Positions 10,917 through 36,783 of a stretch of DNA of 38,690 nt are shown here, piece after piece. Every line of letters starts with the position of its first letter. The first letter of the stretch is position 1. The DNA comes from a virus. The stretch covers positions 1 through 38,690 of the IMG/VR virus record IMGVR_UViG_3300037246_000615; one strand, written 5' to 3'. A program made the translations under genes and the position numbers. The notes under the pieces are model-generated. The model searched no databases. It saw nothing but the letters and a program-made list of their open reading frames with translations, and was not told where the DNA came from.

Positions 10917-12146
10917 CTACCCCTTGATGTTGATGTGCTGTTTTAGTGTGTGCTTGACCTTGACGAGGTCCGACTGTGCTGCCATCACCGCATCAATGTC
11001 CTTGTACGCACCGCATGTCTCATCAATCACACCCTCGTCCTTCCGGCACGTCACGCCTTCGGTTGCCTTGATGTGGTCTTCGACTGTGAAGGTGCGCTTG
11101 GCTTCGGAACGAGACATGACACGCCCAGCGCCATGAGAACAGGAATTGAAAGACAGAGGGTTACCCAAGCCTTCAACGATATAAGAGCGATCGCCCATAC
11201 TGCCAGGAATGATGCCCAGATCGCCAACCCGAGCACGCACGGCCCCCTTACGCGTGACAAAAACGTTCGACCCATAGTGGTTCTCCTTCTGCACGTAGTT
11301 GTGGTGGCAGTTCACCACCACATCATCAGGGAAGATCGGGTGCCCTATTGTCCGACCCATCGCATTGAGGGTCAGGTTCAGCATGATGTCCCTGTTGACC
11401 TTGGCGTAGTTCTGTGCCCAGCCTACAGCCTGGACGTACTCGTCGTGGTACTGCGTGCCTTCGGGCAGGTACGCCAAGTCCTTGTTGGGTAGCTTGACGT
11501 GCCATGTCTCGCACTCGGCCTGTGCGAGGCGGATGAAGTGGGAGCCGATGCGGTTCCCGATGCCCCGTGACCCCGAGTGCAGCATGACCCACACCTCATC
11601 GTTCTCATCAGAGCACACCTCGATGAAGTGGTTGCCTCCACCCAGCGTACCGAGCTGGTACATGGGAGCGCCCCACTTGCGGATGGACTGGTGCTTAGGG
11701 TTCATGCTGATCTCATCGAACTCCTTCGACATCAGGCCCCACTCAGTGCCAGTGAGCCGGGGGATGGTGTCTTGCCACCGCCCCTTGTCCTTGAGCCCAC
11801 CGTTGTCGGTGCGCCCGTGTGGCACGGTCGCCACGATGGCGTCGTAGATCTCCTGCCGGAACTCATACACCTCGGACAGACTCACGTCGGTCAGACGTGC
11901 GGCAACCATGCCGCACCCAATGTCCACGCCCACCGCAGCGGGGATGATTGCACCCTTGGTAGCGATGACGCTGCCCACCGTGGAGCCCATGCCCCAGTGT
12001 GCATCTGGCATCACAGCCAGATGCTTGTGAATGAAGGGGAGCTGTGCTGTCTCACGTAGCTGCTGCTCTGCCTTGATGTCTAGCTCCACGCCGTCCACCC
12101 ATGCCTTCACCGGAACCGCCTGTTTGTTACCTGTCAGTACTCGCAT
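10917..12146 (-). CDS. rtcB: RtcB-type RNA ligase
   Basis: 409 residues with the RtcB metal and active-site residues: GVDIGCGM (D75, C78), GGGNHF (H173), HSGSRG (H190), NCHHN (H281 region), and SHGAGR with H338 as the guanylate-accepting histidine. RtcB joins 2',3'-cyclic phosphate or 3'-phosphate RNA ends to 5'-OH ends using GTP and Mn2+. In a phage it would most plausibly reseal tRNAs cut by host anticodon nucleases, or other cleaved RNAs. ATG 12146 gives the normal N-terminus; it lies within the 3' end of the primase gene with an AAGGAG site. A second RNA ligase of another family lies at 16586-17620. Confidence 0.95.
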   Translation of the reverse strand: MRVLTGNKQAVPVKAWVDGVELDIKAEQQLRETAQLPFIHKHLAVMPDAHWGMGSTVGSVIATKGAIIPAAVGVDIGCGMVAARLTDVSLSEVYEFRQEIYDAIVATVPHGRTDNGGLKDKGRWQDTIPRLTGTEWGLMSKEFDEISMNPKHQSIRKWGAPMYQLGTLGGGNHFIEVCSDENDEVWVMLHSGSRGIGNRIGSHFIRLAQAECETWHVKLPNKDLAYLPEGTQYHDEYVQAVGWAQNYAKVNRDIMLNLTLNAMGRTIGHPIFPDDVVVNCHHNYVQKENHYGSNVFVTRKGAVRARVGDLGIIPGSMGDRSYIVEGLGNPLSFNSCSHGAGRVMSRSEAKRTFTVEDHIKATEGVTCRKDEGVIDETCGAYKDIDAVMAAQSDLVKVKHTLKQHINIKG

Positions 12147-12987
12147 TGAGTAGCTCCTTGATCTCTTCCTTCGTGTGGTCATCGGGTTGCCCCTTGATGT
12201 AGATGCTGCGTGCGCTGATGCCAACCTTCTTCAGCATACGCTCTGCCTTCTGCGAGTTCGCTCCCTCATCCCAGAGGAAGGTGACTCGCTTGACCCTTGA
12301 GTGGACAAGCATGTCCACTTGCCGAGGGCTGAGGTACGATCCAAAGTTAGTGGTCACTCCGAGGTCACGTAACCACATGGAAACAAACGTATTCTCCACG
12401 AAGGTGATCTCTTCCCACAACTTGCACTCTTCCCAGCCCAGTATGAAGTTCGTGATCGCCACGCCCGATGCGTACTTGTAGCGCAGCGCGTCGGGGTCTA
12501 TGTCGGAGAACCACTCCGAGTGTGTGGCGTGTGTGTTCACACGCCGTGAGTTGTATTGCACCAGCTTCCCATCCTCATAGATGGGCACGATGATGTGCGT
12601 CTTGTTGGTATGCATGTCCCACTTCTGAATCATGTCCCACGTCACACCCCGCTCTGCCAACGCCGAGACAGCCACATCGTTCGGGCCGATCTTCGCTGCC
12701 CGAGGGGGCAGCGTCACCTCAACCGCCTTCCGTTCCTTCTTCTCCATCCCAGGTACGTACCCTGCCAGCTCAGGTGGGTACCCAACGATGTTGACCGTCT
12801 GCTCTAGGTTGAGCGTCGTGTGACACCCAGCCCTGTGGCAGTACCCGAGCACCTTCTTGATGTTGAAGTAGAAAGCCTCATGCCCACACGTAGGGCACGG
12901 GAACTTCAGCTCGTTGCCTTGGCGGTGCTCCACCTCGAATGCTCCGAGCATCCACTGGAGGATGTCAGCCTTAGTGTATTGGCTCAT
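12127..12987 (-). CDS. DnaG-like DNA primase
   Basis: 286 residues. An N-terminal zinc-binding domain carries C31, C34, C50 and C55 (CPTCG and CHRAGC), the primase site for template recognition. A linker and core follow, then a Toprim-like domain: E in ITFVENTF, the D in LWDEGAN and the terminal DDHTKEE correspond to the three acidic Toprim motifs, though the usual DxD is D-E-G. The protein is short compared with bacterial DnaG (about 580) and lacks its helicase-binding domain, as is common in phages. It acts with the DnaB-like helicase encoded at 14904-16307. The start overlaps the preceding tiny gene by 17 nt. Confidence 0.88.
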   Translation of the reverse strand: MSQYTKADILQWMLGAFEVEHRQGNELKFPCPTCGHEAFYFNIKKVLGYCHRAGCHTTLNLEQTVNIVGYPPELAGYVPGMEKKERKAVEVTLPPRAAKIGPNDVAVSALAERGVTWDMIQKWDMHTNKTHIIVPIYEDGKLVQYNSRRVNTHATHSEWFSDIDPDALRYKYASGVAITNFILGWEECKLWEEITFVENTFVSMWLRDLGVTTNFGSYLSPRQVDMLVHSRVKRVTFLWDEGANSQKAERMLKKVGISARSIYIKGQPDDHTKEEIKELLNASTDR

Positions 12988-19744: not shown

Positions 19745-19990
19745 CTATCTAACGTCTGCATTGTGCTGTGGGAGCCCACGGCGCTGGAGACAGGTGAGGT
19801 ACTTCGGATACCGGGTGAGCCAGTAGCACACCACGTTGTTGGGCTTGTCCACCCACTTCTGCACCTTGACCGGGCGTTCAAGCGCCTCTTCCAGGGTGGT
19901 TGGTTCGATGGCGTTGGCGAAGTCCACGCACGTCGTGGCCACGAACAGCCCAAGCACCAGTATCACTACCGTATACAGTACCACTCTCAT
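19745..19990 (-). CDS. small exported or membrane-anchored protein, 81 aa
   Basis: An N-terminal hydrophobic segment (VVLYTVVILVLGLFVATTCV) may be a signal peptide or anchor. The rest is polar with three cysteines. ATG 19990 overlaps the helicase stop as ATGA. Promoter P3 lies 240 nt upstream inside the helicase gene, so this is the first gene it serves. Confidence 0.68.
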   Translation of the reverse strand: MRVVLYTVVILVLGLFVATTCVDFANAIEPTTLEEALERPVKVQKWVDKPNNVVCYWLTRYPKYLTCLQRRGLPQHNADVR

Positions 19991-22443: not shown

Positions 22444-22855
22444 CAGTCTCCTCTACCCCGTACCACCCCGCTTCTCTTGCGTTCTTCTTGCTCTCCTCGA
22501 TATCGGCGATCCTACCCGCAAGGTACTTCTCTTCCCATGAGTCCTTGAATGGGTCAGCGAGGTACTGGATCACATCCATGTTGTGGATCGTCCAGATGGT
22601 GTGAAGATCATGCGGCGCCGCCTCCATGCAGTACCAGCACTTGCCCACCTGACTATCCTCCGCATCCAAGTACCGGATCTCGCACTCGACCTCGGCATCC
22701 TCCTCATCCCTGTACTCAAACTTCAGCGCATCACAGTCATGCCACATGTGCGATACAAACCTCTGAGTATCAGTCAGCTCCTTCTTCTGATCGTCCACAT
22801 CCTTGGCGTCAATCAGACACCAGCCACTCAGCGTTACCAACGGCTCACCTCTCAC
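22436..22855 (-). CDS. CxxC-P-W family protein with extended C-terminus, 139 aa (member E)
   Basis: The motif CWYCMEAAPHDLHTIWTIHN matches the family pattern, but here it is internal, followed by 50 residues of a charged helical tail. No ATG fits. A GTG at 22855 with GGGAGGAA eight bases upstream is the best start; a TTG at 22840 is an alternative with 134 residues. The end overlaps the HNH-like gene start by 8 nt. Function unknown. Confidence 0.65.
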   Translation of the reverse strand: MRGEPLVTLSGWCLIDAKDVDDQKKELTDTQRFVSHMWHDCDALKFEYRDEEDAEVECEIRYLDAEDSQVGKCWYCMEAAPHDLHTIWTIHNMDVIQYLADPFKDSWEEKYLAGRIADIEESKKNAREAGWYGVEETDE

Positions 22856-23132
22856 TCTGTAGTTCCTCCCAGTTGTGCATGATCCATGCACCCTTGATCC
22901 CATCAGGGATGGATACTTGGCAGCGCCAGCACGCATTGGCTTTGTTGGCCCACACGTACACTGACGCTACAGCCCTCTCACCGGGGCACTCATGCTTGAT
23001 GAAGGACTTCCCATTGTCATGGAACCATTCCGGCCTGATCGTACCTATGTTTGGCTCCTCCCATGATCTCTCAATCGACCAGCTATCCACCCTGAGTAGC
23101 ACCTCGTTCGGCTTGCGCTTTACTATGCCCAT
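22845..23132 (-). CDS. CxxC-P-W family small protein, 95 aa (member B)
   Basis: Ends with CWRCQVSIPDGIKGAWIMHN plus WEELQSER, the clearest example of the family motif. The N-terminal part is beta-rich with W and H residues. It lies directly before member E (overlap of 11 nt), so two members are adjacent. Ribosome site TGAGG, one base after the upstream stop. Function unknown. Confidence 0.75.
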   Translation of the reverse strand: MGIVKRKPNEVLLRVDSWSIERSWEEPNIGTIRPEWFHDNGKSFIKHECPGERAVASVYVWANKANACWRCQVSIPDGIKGAWIMHNWEELQSER

Positions 23133-28063: not shown

Positions 28064-28293
28064 TACGGCTCCCATTCAAGGAAATCCTTGAAGCCAAGCA
28101 TGTTAGCGGGGGGTTTCTCCCCACACGCCATGCAGTCACCAACTTCTCTATCTTCAAAGCTAAAGCTAGTGGTGGCTGTCCACTGTGGCCCCGACTCCCA
28201 TGAGAAGGCACCCTCTTCGCACAGGTGAACAGTACGATACCCACCGCCCCAGAGCAGCAGCTTCCACTCACCATCCCGCACCAGCTCAGGCAT
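28063..28293 (-). CDS. CxxC-P-W family small protein, 76 aa (member F)
   Basis: The C-terminus CMACGEKPPANMLGFKDFLE plus WEP follows the family pattern with CxxC, P and a terminal W. The N-terminal part is beta-rich (EWKLLLWGGGYRTVHLCEEG). It sits between the MoxR ATPase and the VWA protein. ATG 28293 overlaps the MoxR stop by 8 nt. Function unknown. Confidence 0.72.
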   Translation of the reverse strand: MPELVRDGEWKLLLWGGGYRTVHLCEEGAFSWESGPQWTATTSFSFEDREVGDCMACGEKPPANMLGFKDFLEWEP

Positions 28294-29422
28294 CCGGGTT
28301 AGCGAGGTACGTGCCCCACCTCTTGTACATCTCCTGAAACTCAGGAGTCTGCGCTGCCTTGATCCGATCCTTCTCACTCAGCTTGTTGAACGCGATCGTT
28401 GTTGCCATCTTGGCGATGAGCAGGCCGTACTCTGGCTCCATCTCAACCCTAAGCACGTATGTCAGGGCGTCAACCCAGTGCTTGTGATACTTCGGCTGAT
28501 TGATGTAGTATTCCAACGCCGTGATGGTGGCATACAGCACATCAATCTCCGTCTTGTCAGGCACCCTTGCATTCTTCGGATCAGCCACGATCTCCTCTGG
28601 CCTGACCAGGGTGGTCGTGTTCTTGGCAAAGGTATTGAATTCCATACCAGTACCAGCACCGATGCACCCTACTGCGGTGGGATACAGCCACGTACCCTGT
28701 ACTCCACCAGCAGGGTCAGTCTTCCACATGCTCTTGCTCAGCAGCTCCCATGTCCTCGGTGTGGGAAACGCCTTCTCACTGGTTGATGTCTCGACGATCT
28801 CATCGAACCTGTTGAGTGCGTTGCCCTGCGTCCTGATGTACGCCGTGATGAGCGGGTGGATACCACCAATGTCGGTGGCCCAGTTGACCCACGCATCAAC
28901 GTCGGACTTGGCGTAGTAGTGCTTCATCCGATTGGCCAGAGCCAGCGGCATCTCAAACGCTGCTGACTTGTCCTCGACTCGGTTGCCTGCCCCTATGATA
29001 TAGACGTTCTCACGGAGGGGAAGGTTCCCAACTCTTTTCTCACCGAACACCTTAAAGCAGGCGGCTTGCGTCTGCTCATGCCCAGTCACGATGTCATCGA
29101 AGAAGATGACCATCGGACCCTGGTGCTCGGGCGGGGCGAACTCACTGGCGTTGTACGCCCACAGTGGCACCAGAATATCGGTAGCCACGTTGACCCCCGC
29201 CTCATTGAGATAGGGGTGAGGCACACCACTGATGTCAGTGGGCTCCGAGCAGCCAGCCAAGACCAGCACAATCTCATGGTCGTGGCCAAACGCCTGCTTG
29301 GTAGCCTCCGTCTTGCCAATCCCCGGCGACCCCCAGATCATGCTCGGGATCTCAGGCCCAAGCTGTCTGATGATACGCAGAATGTCAGCTACGTTCTGTT
29401 CTGACAGTTCCATGTCCTTCAT
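28286..29422 (-). CDS. MoxR-family AAA+ ATPase
   Basis: 378 residues. Walker A GSPGIGKTE at 31-39, Walker B VIFFDDI at about 105-111, then a sensor 1 asparagine (IIGAGNR) and an arginine in LANRMKHYY, all as in MoxR proteins. A large C-terminal helical domain follows. MoxR ATPases act as chaperones with VWA-domain partners, exemplified by RavA-ViaA, and the VWA/metallopeptidase gene lies just downstream. In a phage the target is unknown; maturation of a metal enzyme or of a virion component is possible. The ATG has GAGGAGAAG at suitable spacing. Confidence 0.88.
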   Translation of the reverse strand: MKDMELSEQNVADILRIIRQLGPEIPSMIWGSPGIGKTEATKQAFGHDHEIVLVLAGCSEPTDISGVPHPYLNEAGVNVATDILVPLWAYNASEFAPPEHQGPMVIFFDDIVTGHEQTQAACFKVFGEKRVGNLPLRENVYIIGAGNRVEDKSAAFEMPLALANRMKHYYAKSDVDAWVNWATDIGGIHPLITAYIRTQGNALNRFDEIVETSTSEKAFPTPRTWELLSKSMWKTDPAGGVQGTWLYPTAVGCIGAGTGMEFNTFAKNTTTLVRPEEIVADPKNARVPDKTEIDVLYATITALEYYINQPKYHKHWVDALTYVLRVEMEPEYGLLIAKMATTIAFNKLSEKDRIKAAQTPEFQEMYKRWGTYLANPDA

Positions 29423-29445: not shown

Positions 29446-29880
29446 TCACTTCCCTATGTCAGAGAGCAACACGAAGTGTGTCGCCGCTCGTAGTTTGTCT
29501 GGCATATCTTCCACTGGTTTCTCACAGTCACACTCAGGGCGTACCACACCCTCTTCCTCGTAGTCACCCCTCTTCTCCTTCGTGAAGGTGCAGAGGCCAT
29601 CTGTTCTCCCGTACCAGTGACGGGTATGCTGCAACCACGCCTCATGCTCGACCACCTTGAGCGTAGTCTCTTGCGGTGTTGGTCCCTCATGTACCCCGAT
29701 CACCTTGATGATCGACTCAGGCTTCAACTTGAAGCCCTCGCACAACACGGAGGGAGCATAGATGTAGAGCTGCTTGCTTGTTGTACTCACCTTCTTCGGT
29801 CGTTGTATTAACGCTAGATTCATACCTCTCACTCCACCTATGGCATCCCACCACAACCAAGCGACCTGTTCGTCAGTCAT
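29446..29880 (-). CDS. CxxC-P-W family-like protein, 144 aa (divergent member H)
   Basis: The C-terminus CDCEKPVEDMPDKLRAATHF plus VLLSDIGK has CxC, P and a hydrophobic helix, but no terminal W, so it is a divergent member of the small-protein family. The N-terminal part has W residues and a basic beta region (LALIQRPKKVSTTSKQLYIY). It is the first gene after promoter P4, with about 30 nt of leader. ATG 29880 is chosen for its AGAGGG site; ATG 29823 is an alternative. Function unknown. Confidence 0.62.
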   Translation of the reverse strand: MTDEQVAWLWWDAIGGVRGMNLALIQRPKKVSTTSKQLYIYAPSVLCEGFKLKPESIIKVIGVHEGPTPQETTLKVVEHEAWLQHTRHWYGRTDGLCTFTKEKRGDYEEEGVVRPECDCEKPVEDMPDKLRAATHFVLLSDIGK

Positions 29881-29911
29881 AGTGCAGCCCTCTTCTCCAG
29901 CCGACCCTTCA

Positions 29912-29940
29912 AGTTTAGCACAACTCGACCGGCCTGTCAA
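29912..29940 (-). promoter_or_regulatory. sigma70-like promoter P4 (class II)
   Basis: TTGACA (29935-29940), 17 bp, extended -10 GTGC-TAAACT with the hexamer at 29912-29917. It would start transcripts near 29905 for the gene at 29446-29880 and the MoxR/VWA operon. A GC-rich hairpin lies directly upstream. Confidence 0.8.
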
Positions 29941-29944
29941 ATCC

Positions 29945-29964
29945 GGCCCCTTTAGGGGGTGGCC
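29945..29964 (-). terminator. GC hairpin upstream of P4, possible terminator
   Basis: CCCC and GGGG arms (29947-29950 with 29955-29958) around TTTA, flanked by GGCC repeats at both ends. It overlaps the stop codon of gene 29952-30290 and precedes P4, so it may separate the right-hand small-gene block from the MoxR operon. No T-run follows, so efficiency is uncertain. Confidence 0.4.
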
Positions 29965-30290
29965 TGTACGTTTATGTCCATGTTCAACTTGTACATCTCC
30001 ACATCGAACACGTTGTCCTCTTTGATGATGATCCCCTTATCAATGTACTCCCTGAGTATGATCGGGAACTCCTTGTCTGTGATGGCAGCATACTCCTTGA
30101 TGTCCTCGGGGCTGATGGACACACCGGCCCCAGCCTTGAACAAGAACGCTTCCAAGAACATGCGCCTGTTGAACTCACCATGAGTGACAGGTGCAGACAT
30201 CGGAGCTACCGTTATATGACCCTGTTCATTTATGGTGACGATCGCTTGGATCGCTGACTGTAGCGCCTCGTTCAGCTTCGGTTCACTCAT
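29952..30290 (-). CDS. hypothetical protein, 112 aa
   Basis: A helical soluble protein with the middle rich in A, G and E (AFLFKAGAGVSISPEDIKEY) and a beta end (DVEMYKLNMDINVQATP). Overlaps the upstream stop as ATGA. No family recognised. Confidence 0.7.
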   Translation of the reverse strand: MSEPKLNEALQSAIQAIVTINEQGHITVAPMSAPVTHGEFNRRMFLEAFLFKAGAGVSISPEDIKEYAAITDKEFPIILREYIDKGIIIKEDNVFDVEMYKLNMDINVQATP

Positions 30291-30475
30291 CCCAGTATCT
30301 TCTCCTCTGTCTCATCCAGCTCACCACCCCAGCCAGAGAAGCATGAGATAACACTGATACCGGCCTGCTCTACAGCCACGATAGCTGCGACACGGGGCGG
30401 CAGATCGAACCCATCGGGCAGCTCAACGTCATCACGTACTACAATCTTGCACTCCCACACCTTGTACTTGCTCAT
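30287..30475 (-). CDS. hypothetical protein, 62 aa
   Basis: Small acidic protein with an N-terminal beta region (KYKVWECKIVVRDD) and a helix followed by CFSGWGG. ATG 30475 shares one base with the preceding stop (TGATG); ends in ATGA with the next gene. Function unknown. Confidence 0.7.
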   Translation of the reverse strand: MSKYKVWECKIVVRDDVELPDGFDLPPRVAAIVAVEQAGISVISCFSGWGGELDETEEKILG

Positions 30476-30753
30476 CATGTCACCTCGATTACGTACTGGA
30501 ACCAAGGACGCTGCTGCTTCTTCTTGTCCTTGTCACTTCTGTTCTCACCGTCGAGCATCAGGCACAGTTTCCTATGCCCCTCATGTATTGCATCCATCGT
30601 GTTGCCTCGGAAGTCCAAGTCAGGCTGATGGAAGATGTAGCGATGAGTCGGGAACTCATGCTTGATCTTGCACGCCCTCTTCTTGTCATCACAGGGCCAT
30701 GATGTGCCGTTGCAATACTTGGTCACGAACACACGGTACTTAATCTTTACCAT
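30475..30753 (-). CDS. hypothetical protein, 92 aa
   Basis: A basic protein, beta in the first half (MVKIKYRVFVTKYCNGTSW) with three cysteines, and a lysine-rich end (RSDKDKKKQQRPWFQYVIEV). ATG 30753 has GGAGGACAG upstream; it overlaps the preceding gene by 14 nt. Function unknown. Confidence 0.68.
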   Translation of the reverse strand: MVKIKYRVFVTKYCNGTSWPCDDKKRACKIKHEFPTHRYIFHQPDLDFRGNTMDAIHEGHRKLCLMLDGENRSDKDKKKQQRPWFQYVIEVT

Positions 30754-31090
30754 GCTGTCCTCCATACCATATTTGTAGCGCATCCCAGTTGTGCAGCCTC
30801 CACAGTGTCAGCAGCCCTTCGGGGATTGTAACGTGGCACCTTTTACACTCACCGTCCGTTGCGGCAGACCACGTACCTTGCCATATCTTACTGACGGTTC
30901 TTCCTTTATCACCTGTTTCTACGTAGCATACATGCTGTATCACAGAGGGAAACCCATTGTCCGTCGCTCTTCCCTCTGCCGTGTTCGTTGTATCGTTGGT
31001 GTTTATGGTGAACTTTCCCTCCTTGTGTAGTACCTCACCGAATGTACTCATGCCAAAATCACTCCATCTTGATGCGCTTACCACTCCCAT
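30740..31090 (-). CDS. CxxC-P-W family protein, at least 116 aa (member C)
   Basis: CKRCHVTIPEGLLTLWRLHN plus WDALQIW near the C-terminus is a full match to the family pattern, almost identical in layout to member B. The frame stays protein-like for another 20 codons upstream of ATG 31090 (KYDIEGWKTHLDRY), yet no ATG, GTG or TTG with a good ribosome site was seen there, so the true start is uncertain. ATG 31051 (MSTFGEV) is another option. Function unknown. Confidence 0.65.
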   Translation of the reverse strand: MGVVSASRWSDFGMSTFGEVLHKEGKFTINTNDTTNTAEGRATDNGFPSVIQHVCYVETGDKGRTVSKIWQGTWSAATDGECKRCHVTIPEGLLTLWRLHNWDALQIWYGGQHGKD

Positions 31091-31145
31091 GCCATCACCG
31101 ATGCCGATGTGTGATGTGTGGTTGGTGTGGTCGGTACTATACCTA

Positions 31146-31355
31146 TCAAGGTGCGTTTTCCACCCCTCTATGTCGTACTTGACCCGCTGCCGGGGGGTAG
31201 AAGTAGGAGCGGAGGTCGAACTTGTCCTCTTCGTCACAGTGTTTCTCCCAATGGTACTCGCACACACCTACCTCTTTGGTTCGGCGTGGTCCGAAGGCAC
31301 CGTACCCCAGAAGGGAGTGACGACGGCACCTCTTGATCTCACAGGTTGCCTTCAT
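31146..31355 (-). CDS. small treble-clef-like protein, 69 aa
   Basis: MKATCEIKRCRRHSLLGYGA followed by VCEYHWEKHC provides four cysteine/histidine pairs arranged like a small zinc finger. GAGGAAGAG precedes ATG 31355, which overlaps the preceding gene by 17 nt. Function unknown. Confidence 0.65.
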   Translation of the reverse strand: MKATCEIKRCRRHSLLGYGAFGPRRTKEVGVCEYHWEKHCDEEDKFDLRSYFYPPAAGQVRHRGVENAP

Positions 31356-33178: not shown

Positions 33179-33350
33179 CCTCGTTCTCCTCGTCCTCCTT
33201 GGTCATCCAGTTGGTTGCCCTGCATAGCAAACAGCCCAGTATCAGGACAAGTGGGCCAAACAGGTACACACCCATGCTCATGTTCACTATAGTCAACGCA
33301 AGCATGTACATACAGAACCCAAGGGCAGGCATTATGAGTAGCGTTTCCAT
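33165..33350 (-). CDS. two-helix membrane protein, 61 aa
   Basis: Two hydrophobic segments (ALGFCMYMLALTIVNM and YLFGPLVLILGCLLC) and an acidic tail (KEDEENEDAAD). ATG 33350 shares one base with the preceding stop. Function unknown. Confidence 0.68.
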   Translation of the reverse strand: METLLIMPALGFCMYMLALTIVNMSMGVYLFGPLVLILGCLLCRATNWMTKEDEENEDAAD

Positions 33351-33559
33351 CACAAGCCCCCTGTCACCCGTTTGAGCACACCTTCTAGGTAGATGAGGCA
33401 CGATGGGTGATGGTCGTTGATGCAACCAACGTCGTCACACCCACCCACTCGGCTCTTGAAGCAGGCCACCACACCACGCATGGCTGTGACCAGAGCCTTG
33501 ATCTTGTCCCGATTCAGGTTGCGCTCACCTATGACCTCAAGCAGCTCCTCATCTGTCAT
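33350..33559 (-). CDS. hypothetical Cys-containing protein, 69 aa
   Basis: MTDEELLEVIGERNLNRDKI is followed by CFKSRVGGCDDVGCINDHHP and a final cysteine, a possible metal or disulphide cluster. ATG 33559 overlaps the stop of the 27-residue lipoprotein-like gene as ATGA. Longer in-frame starts lie inside that gene. Function unknown. Confidence 0.65.
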   Translation of the reverse strand: MTDEELLEVIGERNLNRDKIKALVTAMRGVVACFKSRVGGCDDVGCINDHHPSCLIYLEGVLKRVTGGL

Positions 33560-33639
33560 ACCGCACAGCCCGATACCAACATACAGACCACGGCCACGGC
33601 ACATATGACACATGCAACCACCCAGTCTCTTGTCGTCAT
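33556..33639 (-). CDS. 27-aa lipoprotein-like micropeptide
   Basis: MTTRDWVVACVICAVAVVCM is followed by LVSGCAV. The end fits a lipobox (V-S-G-C), leaving a mature part of only three residues, or simply a small membrane peptide. GGAGAAG precedes the ATG; TAATG and ATGA junctions on both sides support expression. Function unknown. Confidence 0.52.
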   Translation of the reverse strand: MTTRDWVVACVICAVAVVCMLVSGCAV

Positions 33640-33851
33640 TACTTCTCCTTCCCACAAGTGGGGCAGACGTTGCAGTTGCACTTGCCTGCCTCTTCCAACA
33701 CCTTCTTGTACTTCTCGTACTCTCTGTCTTTCTTCTTTGCCCACCACTCAGCGTTGCTTCGGGCTATGTTGTAATCGTACTCTGCCCGCTGAAGTGGTGT
33801 TTTCTCGGTGCGGTAAGCCCTTCCGAGCCCACCAAACGGTTTGCTATTCAT
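33639..33851 (-). CDS. small basic protein with C-terminal zinc cluster, 70 aa
   Basis: A helical, basic body (AEWWAKKKDREYEKYKKVLE) ending in CNCNVCPTCGKEK, a compact Cys cluster that probably binds zinc. AAAGGAGAAG precedes ATG 33851, and promoter P5 lies immediately upstream with a leader of about 20 nt, so it should be highly expressed. Function unknown. Confidence 0.7.
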   Translation of the reverse strand: MNSKPFGGLGRAYRTEKTPLQRAEYDYNIARSNAEWWAKKKDREYEKYKKVLEEAGKCNCNVCPTCGKEK

Positions 33852-35119: not shown

Positions 35120-35374
35120 TCAATCGTCGCTTACGTCAAGCATCTCCACATGCAGGGCATGAGGAGGATACAACGGCTGCACCGTGGAAAGCACACCCTC
35201 CAGACCATGCGGTCCACATGCTACGAAGGTGCGTGCCTCTTCGTCATCTACGAAGGGACCATACACCAGCACTCCATCACCCGCTGGCCTCGCAAACACC
35301 ACGCAGCACTCTTCGTCCTCAAACGTGGCGAACTCCTCGTCCACCAGTTCCTTGATGTCATCTTCTATCGTCAT
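35120..35374 (-). CDS. acidic hypothetical protein, 84 aa
   Basis: Strongly acidic N-terminus (MTIEDDIKELVDEEFATFED), then a beta/helix element VLVYGPFVDDEEARTF similar to that in gene 32879-33178. AAGGAGATAACAC precedes ATG 35374. Acidic small early phage proteins can be anti-host DNA mimics, but nothing here shows that. Function unknown. Confidence 0.7.
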   Translation of the reverse strand: MTIEDDIKELVDEEFATFEDEECCVVFARPAGDGVLVYGPFVDDEEARTFVACGPHGLEGVLSTVQPLYPPHALHVEMLDVSDD

Positions 35375-35468
35375 TGTGTTATCTCCTTTGCACCACCATC
35401 TACCATAGGATACCAGAGCGGTCGTGCCGTAGCGTATGCCTACTCTGGCACCTATGAGACATGGTGTA

Positions 35469-36236
35469 TCAGTTACCGAAACGGAATGGATTGAAACCTC
35501 GACAGTCCCGATCTCTTCGGTCTGTCCTACCATCACCGTCGTTGTCCAACCCACGCCAACCACCAGCATAATCCTCATCGCGCTGATGACTACATGGATC
35601 TACTGGATGATTAGGGAACTCATCCAGTGGTGCCCTGTAATACTGAGGTTGAACATCCTCTCCAACCGGAGTATATTTATCAGGGTTAGCATCAGCATGA
35701 CAACTCTTACAAGTAGTCACACCTGATACCGTGTGGTGCTGACGTAAGCCTGCGCTCACACCAGATGACACGTTATCGTTCCCTGCATCCTCGTCACGAC
35801 CATGACACCCACCGCATCCAATAGGATTGCCGAGTGCTGGGTCAGTTGAGGAGTACCCTAGTGTCACAGGGTACTTGCCGCTCGTTCCATGACAGGTGTT
35901 ACATGAACCACGACTCATCTTGTCATTGATTACACGACGATGGATGTCGTGCAACCCTATGATAAGTCTCGGCTCATCACCCTCTTCAACAGGCTGATCG
36001 GTGTACTTCTCTCGCCATCGTCTACCATCAGCGAGAGATCGGTACTCATCTTGGAGGTAAGGTGTGCTGTTTGTCTCATCAGTGGCCCTAAAGGGGCCAT
36101 GACAAGTCGCACAGTTACCCACCGCCTGCTCTTGACCATCAGGATTCGTCACCTTGTGGTCACTGTATGTCTCGTATGCCCATGCACCCGGCGCCCAAAG
36201 GCACAAGCTCATAAGCACAAGGACGGTCTTTCTCAT
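35469..36236 (-). CDS. secreted tetraheme c-type cytochrome
   Basis: 255 residues. Signal peptide MRKTVLVLMSLCLWAPGAWA, with cleavage expected after AWA. Four heme-attachment motifs follow: CATCH, CNTCH, CGGCH and CKSCH. Extra histidines (YSDHK, LHDIHRR, RQHHT, FPNHP) could supply distal ligands, as in bis-histidine tetraheme cytochromes. The C-terminus has a DNDGDGRTDRRDRDC stretch of the calcium-binding DxDxDG type. Known: CxxCH binds heme covalently in the periplasm using host cytochrome c maturation. Inferred: electron transfer at the cell envelope of the infected host. It has a strong AAGGGAG site, lies among phage small genes on the same strand and ends 94 nt before the next gene. Confidence 0.9.
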   Translation of the reverse strand: MRKTVLVLMSLCLWAPGAWAYETYSDHKVTNPDGQEQAVGNCATCHGPFRATDETNSTPYLQDEYRSLADGRRWREKYTDQPVEEGDEPRLIIGLHDIHRRVINDKMSRGSCNTCHGTSGKYPVTLGYSSTDPALGNPIGCGGCHGRDEDAGNDNVSSGVSAGLRQHHTVSGVTTCKSCHADANPDKYTPVGEDVQPQYYRAPLDEFPNHPVDPCSHQRDEDYAGGWRGLDNDGDGRTDRRDRDCRGFNPFRFGN

Positions 36237-36348
36237 TTAGTTCTCCCTTGTATTGGAGCGTGCAAGGCCAAGCATAGGTATCTCCCAGCTTGATACAAGC
36301 GCCTTGCTCTAATGGTGTGCCCTTACACACCATCAAGGCAAGAGGCAT
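36160..36348 (-). CDS. possible Cys-rich small protein overlapping the cytochrome start, 62 aa
   Basis: ATG 36348 shares one base with the preceding stop (TAATG) and has AAGAGGT before it. The product is MPLALMVCKGTPLEQGACIK and continues with four more cysteines. Its last 77 nt overlap the signal-peptide region of the cytochrome in another frame, which is unusual for this window. Either it couples translation to the cytochrome or it is not a functional product. Confidence 0.48.
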   Translation of the reverse strand: MPLALMVCKGTPLEQGACIKLGDTYAWPCTLQYKGELNEKDRPCAYELVPLGAGCMGIRDIQ

Positions 36349-36464
36349 TACCTCTTGGTTCCGAAAATGTACCTGAACAAAGCGTACCCAACAACAGCGA
36401 TCGCCCCGTTCTGAGACACCTCGATCAGTGTCTGATGCCAGTTTGCACACTCAATGATCGTCAT
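36348..36464 (-). CDS. 38-aa membrane peptide
   Basis: MTIIECANWHQTLIEVSQNG then a hydrophobic end (AIAVVGYALFRYIFG). GGGGTGGTAAC precedes the ATG and includes the stop of the upstream gene. Function unknown. Confidence 0.58.
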   Translation of the reverse strand: MTIIECANWHQTLIEVSQNGAIAVVGYALFRYIFGTKR

Positions 36465-36465
36465 G

Positions 36466-36783
36466 TTACCACCCCGCTGCGTTGACCAAGCGTGTGTGCT
36501 CTCTGATTGAGAGCTGGAAGCTCGGTAGCTTGCCTTCATAGTGGCAGATCACCACCTCAGCCCATGTCTCGCACTCAAAGCATGGATCCTGCGGCGTCCA
36601 AGCACCACACACATCGCACCCTAAGGTAAGGCGCGAAGCGTCGTGTGTCTTACCAAGGCTCTGCTCCAGTGTGAATGACTCACCCTTGTGCCGTAGCCTC
36701 ACACTCCAGGCAAACGCAGCTATGAAGCCGAGGATCACCGTTGTTAGCACAAAGTACAGCATGATGAACTCGATGTCTGTCAT
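36466..36783 (-). CDS. membrane-anchored zinc-site protein, 105 aa
   Basis: An N-terminal membrane helix (FIMLYFVLTTVILGFIAAFA) is followed by CDVCG and CFEC (about 12 residues apart), a likely zinc site on the cytoplasmic side. ATGA overlap with the preceding gene. Function unknown. Confidence 0.68.
   Translation of the reverse strand: MTDIEFIMLYFVLTTVILGFIAAFAWSVRLRHKGESFTLEQSLGKTHDASRLTLGCDVCGAWTPQDPCFECETWAEVVICHYEGKLPSFQLSIREHTRLVNAAGW

Follow-up and report, generated by a model that had tools for sequence, protein, structure and literature searches.

Photosynthesis, sulfur and nitrogen genes are already known as phage cargo. Among the systems closest to the one described here is a phage-borne gene for SoxD, a c-type cytochrome, which has been proposed as a phage auxiliary gene in seep and sediment samples; the two phage copies of SoxD were reported to be without cytochrome motifs (PMC8190135). 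From an oxygen minimum zone, a viral norB/nirK moron has been described, in which the respiratory redox genes of a metagenomic virus are grouped like a moron and flanked by regulatory signals (PMC8115048). Multihaem cytochromes have also been found in Borgs, which are extrachromosomal elements (PMC9605863).

The locus considered here lies in a window of 38,690 bp, meaning the whole stretch of DNA that was analysed, which is an entire IMG/VR record classed as linear and therefore probably a fragment. As judged from its sequence, the window carries a phage-encoded gene for an exported, intact protein with four heme-binding motifs. Like phage SoxD, this protein is put forward as c-type cytochrome cargo, but SoxD takes part in thiosulfate oxidation, whereas the protein of the window has four intact heme sites (PMC8190135). 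The norB/nirK moron is likewise respiratory cargo, although it comprises denitrification enzymes rather than a putative multiheme electron carrier (PMC8115048). Borgs share the presence of multihaem cytochromes, but are giant elements of Methanoperedens archaea, in contrast to the probable tailed phage examined here (PMC9605863). New in the present case is an intact multiheme cytochrome in such a phage, for which we found no report in the open-access literature and no match in phage collections.

The open reading frame occupies exactly positions 35469-36236 of the minus strand, begins with ATG and contains no internal stop codon. No other frame in the window has more than one CxxCH motif. The following features were recognized in the gene and its product.

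35469-36236, minus strand: tetraheme c-type cytochrome gene, 255 aa (open reading frame, Pfam and homolog alignment)
36177-36236, minus strand: Sec signal peptide, residues 1-20, MRKTVLVLMSLCLWAPGAWA (sequence; cleavage site aligned with homologs)
36099-36113, minus strand: heme site 1, CATCH, residues 42-46 (CxxCH motif)
35889-35903, minus strand: heme site 2, CNTCH, residues 112-116 (CxxCH motif)
35802-35816, minus strand: heme site 3, CGGCH, residues 141-145 (CxxCH motif)
35697-35711, minus strand: heme site 4, CKSCH, residues 176-180 (CxxCH motif)
35502-35594, minus strand: C-terminal Cys215...Cys245 segment with an acidic, calcium-loop-like LDNDGDG motif (both cysteines invariant in 13 homologs)

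A preliminary description had proposed a 255-residue protein with a signal peptide, four CxxCH motifs and extra histidines, and the reading frame, the motifs and an alignment of 13 sequences all agree with that proposal. The signal peptide (MRKTVLVLMSLCLWAPGAWA) is followed by YETY, and the three closest bacterial homologs, when aligned, likewise have the A20-Y21 cleavage site. Among the histidines outside the heme motifs, H96, H99, H167 and H168 are conserved, while H27, H210 and H217 are not; H99 and H168 are invariant across the 13 sequences, and H96 and H167 are kept in most. These four conserved histidines are candidate distal ligands for the four hemes, a number that fits bis-His coordination with a geometry that is predicted only. 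In the phage copy, none of the eight heme cysteines has been lost, nor any of the four proximal or the four conserved candidate distal histidines. At the C-terminus, which gives a sub-threshold match to NF033662, Cys215 and Cys245 may be joined by a disulfide and the acidic loop may bind calcium.

Comparison of the protein with cytochrome families and viral databases, a check put forward in the preliminary description, gave a divided outcome. The Pfam models Cytochrom_c3_2 (PF14537; 28.4 bits against a curated cut-off of 25) and Cytochrome_C7 (PF14522; 25.8 bits against 24.8) both pass their gathering scores, if marginally, and indicate a class III-type multiheme CxxCH arrangement. However, their coverage is partial and leaves out the Cys pair and the acidic loop at the C-terminus of the phage protein. 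No viral relative was recovered, no NCBIfam family fits the whole protein, and a PHROG search gave no match up to E = 1. A search of the PDB found no relatives at E <0.01, and the family is without a solved structure. The structure prediction that had also been put forward was of no help, as AlphaFold2 supplied with the 13 homologs returned an unusable model (mean pLDDT 46.9).

Bacterial homologs were found by searching bacterial genome contigs with the degenerate pattern YTPVGE[DN]V, which yielded 12 homologous contigs; a scan of genome contigs using peptide patterns from the phage protein alone returned no relatives. The 13 aligned sequences have 41 invariant columns, which excludes chance. 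The closest homolog, from a gammaproteobacterial MAG (L011), is 60% identical over its full length, and those from MAGs labelled Alphaproteobacteria (L007) and Deltaproteobacteria (L022) are each 56% identical, also at full length. Common to the 13 members are four heme sites, the Cys pair (215, 245), the LDNDGDG acidic loop and the conserved extra histidines. Together the bacterial proteins (L011, L007, L022, L014 and others) represent a solitary tetraheme family with the motifs AGLRQHH, YTPVGE and LDNDGDG, in which the order of heme sites, the conserved histidines, the Cys pair and the acidic loop are those of the phage protein. In the tree, the phage protein clusters with the three nearest bacterial proteins (support 90/98). 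Full-length homology, motifs, Cys pair and tree position all assign it to this AGLRQHH/YTPVGE family.

The phage gene nevertheless differs from its bacterial counterparts. The three closest bacterial genes have GC3 values of 0.70-0.75, and many bacterial members carry long C-terminal extensions, which in L013 terminate in what resembles a PEP-CTERM sorting tail. The distribution of the family is sparse and patchy: it occurs in 2/57, 1/11 and 5/80 genomes in three orders and in few genomes within classes, and no member besides that of the window was found in a virus. In the bacterial neighbourhoods inspected, the homologs are solitary genes, with no electron-transport operon, pathway or conserved operon around them. 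The L011 homolog was considered as a possible prophage gene, but this was rejected because its 37-kb surroundings look chromosomal; on the short contigs of L007 and L022, no phage-like genes were noticed by eye.

Across all collections scanned, the cytochrome was seen once in a phage. No homolog was found in 50,697 phage records, and IMG/VR scans that used the protein, a motif and two alignments as queries brought up no second viral member, although these scans had no positive control and very near records may escape them. A search of plasmids was empty, and an additional tetraheme query, which is given no weight, had no match among phages. The gene is also absent from all 15 relatives of the phage, most of which are fragments. 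The rarity in phages asserted by the preliminary description is borne out by these searches.

The window encodes a DNA polymerase, SbcC- and SbcD-like subunits, a UvsX-like recombinase, a DnaB-like helicase, a DNA ligase, RtcB and a sigma factor. The 15 relatives are IMG/VR contigs whose DNA polymerases are 61-84% identical to that of the window and which show long collinearity with it. Two of them reach 119 kb, and one of these (G011) encodes a terminase large subunit, a major head protein and tail proteins. One relative comes from Columbia River estuary sediment (3300005825; PMC6848030) and another from sample MaiPo-8 of Mai Po sediment (3300009506; PMC6461988). By this comparison, the window probably belongs to a tailed phage of sediment bacteria, from a lineage with genomes of ∼119 kb. 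A tRNA-based inference indicated no host, and an Rfam search of the window found no families.

Other features of these genomes were also observed. Several large proteins in the virion-gene region of G011 (L050, L051) have no PHROG match. Elsewhere in G011, a small open reading frame at 80002-80352 (L054:2-352) consists of many copies of the repeat AEGSKLYAEGENLH, and a run of roughly twelve small proteins that resemble one another and share a CxxC...PEGIQAMF-like motif is encoded at 84826-89724 (L054:4826-9724); single proteins resembling this set also occur in the window (22845-23132 and 30740-31267). The RtcB RNA ligase of the window (10917-12176) is 74-88% identical in some relatives and placed elsewhere or missing in others, a variation that suggests mobility. 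A small gene at 19745-19990 with an N-terminal hydrophobic signal is kept in most relatives (35-67%) and has no family match.

The surroundings of the cytochrome gene are best compared with those in G003, a 49-kb relative (IMG/VR 3300009506_000085) whose polymerase is 76% identical to that of the window and whose copy of an ATPase gene (window 28286-29422) is 93% identical. In the direction of transcription, these surroundings are as follows.

36466-36783, minus strand: 105-aa phage gene with homologs in G003 and G015
36348-36464, minus strand: upstream 38-aa phage gene, 50% identical in G003
36303-36342, minus strand: upstream intergenic RNA hairpin, conserved in G003 (L039:10577-10598), with two compensatory pairs
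36241-36249, minus strand: ribosome-binding site AAGGGAGAA before the cytochrome start; GGAGAACTA also stands before the G003 cargo start
35394-35466, minus strand: downstream intergenic hairpin, a predicted fold (z -4.2)
35120-35374, minus strand: downstream 84-aa gene, for which a homolog search found none
33350-33655, minus strand: downstream gene kept in relatives (43-68% identity)

The cytochrome gene is thus flanked by small genes on the same strand, whose starts are preceded by purine-rich Shine-Dalgarno sites like its own (AAGGGAGAACTAAATG), in keeping with the small same-strand neighbours and ribosome sites noted in the preliminary description. With phage genes on both sides, the central claim of that description also holds: a phage genome contains the gene for a secreted tetraheme c-type cytochrome. 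The distance to the conserved upstream phage gene is 112 bp, and that to the conserved downstream phage gene is 1.8 kb. All 17 pairs of the upstream hairpin are formed in both the window and G003, and two of them are changed on both sides; this compensatory count of 2 was reached by 122 of 500 shuffles, two sequences being too few for statistics. Sliding the partners, as a control, abolishes the pairing, and across IMG/VR the exact hairpin pattern has one other match, in G003. Promoter- and terminator-like sites are no commoner than in shuffled sequences, and hairpins lie on both sides of the gene.

The window and G003 have the same gene order along transcription: the 105-aa gene, the 38-aa gene, the hairpin, the cargo and the later gene at 33350-33655. 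The G003 cargo (G003 29870-30475, L039:9870-10475, minus strand) is a protein of 201 aa, unrelated to the cytochrome, with a cysteine-rich C-terminus and a twin-arginine signal that passes the domain cut-off of NCBIfam TIGR01409 and narrowly misses that of Pfam; it has no relatives in other IMG/VR contigs. Because the upstream genes, hairpin and ribosome-site letters are common but the cargo differs, the position appears to be a swappable slot for exported cargo. This can be extended to a lineage that has a dedicated exported-cargo slot, RNA-marked between the 38-aa gene and the cargo, which members load with different exported proteins (a Sec cytochrome here, a Tat protein in G003), and in which the cytochrome would steer periplasmic or extracellular electron flow of the host. 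We offer this extended proposal tentatively and give it a modest chance of being right.

The composition of the cytochrome gene is out of line with its surroundings. Its GC3 is 0.45, compared with 0.55-0.81 for the other genes of the window read in their correct frame, and few of them match the codon usage of the window as poorly, which marks it as foreign to the phage. This mismatch, the absence of the gene from relatives and the chance that a very near record escaped the searches would fit a bacterial cytochrome fragment joined into a phage contig during assembly. Such an artefact, however, presupposes two joins no more than ∼2.7 kb apart, between flanks whose phage genes have both kept their order, and one of these joins would have to lie after the conserved hairpin but before the start codon, yet leave a phage-like ribosome site. 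Moreover, the 112-bp upstream gap holds the hairpin conserved in G003, GGAGAACTA is common to G003, and GC content and GC skew are smooth through the region. The same upstream genes, hairpin and ribosome-site letters in G003 argue strongly against an assembly join at the cytochrome, which we judge unlikely, and an artefact of this kind has very little probability in our estimate. The preliminary description had held that absence from related phages combined with signs of contamination would speak against it; the gene is indeed absent from the 15 relatives, but codon usage foreign to the phage is the only sign of contamination found, and a recent transfer would account for it just as well.

Foreign codon usage also means that the gene could be a recent passenger, although its donor probably was none of the three closest bacterial homologs, given their GC3. 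A non-functional passenger, host DNA recently captured and heading for loss, would fit the single occurrence and the foreign GC3, as well as a branch length of 0.42 compared with 0.15-0.21 for bacterial relatives and 21 changes of its own at sites that are otherwise invariant, compared with 9-13 in other members. Yet the 255 codons are open, all heme cysteines and the proximal and conserved extra histidines are intact, and the ribosome site is phage-like. Differences to L011 amount to 0.29, 0.30 and 0.66 at codon positions 1, 2 and 3, and their concentration at third positions indicates purifying selection along the path to L011, although a single phage copy cannot show whether this constraint continued inside the phage. 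We therefore regard a decaying passenger as rather unlikely. A low probability is also given to an exported tetraheme protein with a non-respiratory role, such as envelope change, superinfection exclusion, heme or peroxide handling, or surface binding through the C-terminal acidic loop. The unrelated Tat-exported protein in the G003 slot suggests that export, not electron transport, may be the common theme, and the long C-terminal extensions of bacterial relatives, with the PEP-CTERM-like end of L013, point to the cell surface; four intact heme sites, however, are costly and would make little sense without redox chemistry.

The explanation toward which we lean, with somewhat better than even confidence, is that the cytochrome is a functional, horizontally acquired cargo gene (a moron or auxiliary metabolic gene) of an uncultured tailed phage, encoding a periplasmic or secreted tetraheme electron carrier for use during infection. 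A host-like gene in a genuine viral genome is supported by the synteny, the conserved upstream hairpin, the virus record and the virion genes of a relative. Counting against this explanation are the single phage occurrence, the foreign GC3, a family without known function or operon, and the pLDDT of 47. In the window, neither an electron partner nor a heme or maturation gene came to light; the electron partners, the host and the benefit to the phage are what we infer. The host Sec system would export the cytochrome, and the host cytochrome c maturation system would attach four bis-His hemes. As host proteins turn over, the cytochrome, placed in the periplasm or on the cell surface, could then carry, buffer or absorb electrons, and electron flow to respiration, extracellular acceptors or peroxide disposal might be sustained until lysis. 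The preliminary description had gone further, to a protein that adds to or replaces host respiration or extracellular electron transfer in a metal-reducing or sulfur-cycling host, a step for which the bacterial homologs inspected, solitary genes without electron-transport operons, gave no support.

Through this cytochrome, the virus may manipulate host electron handling in the outer compartment of the cell. If the protein is made, the electron economy of sediment bacteria would lie within direct reach of viruses, and phages would be a possible route for the spread of multiheme cytochromes between distant bacterial classes.
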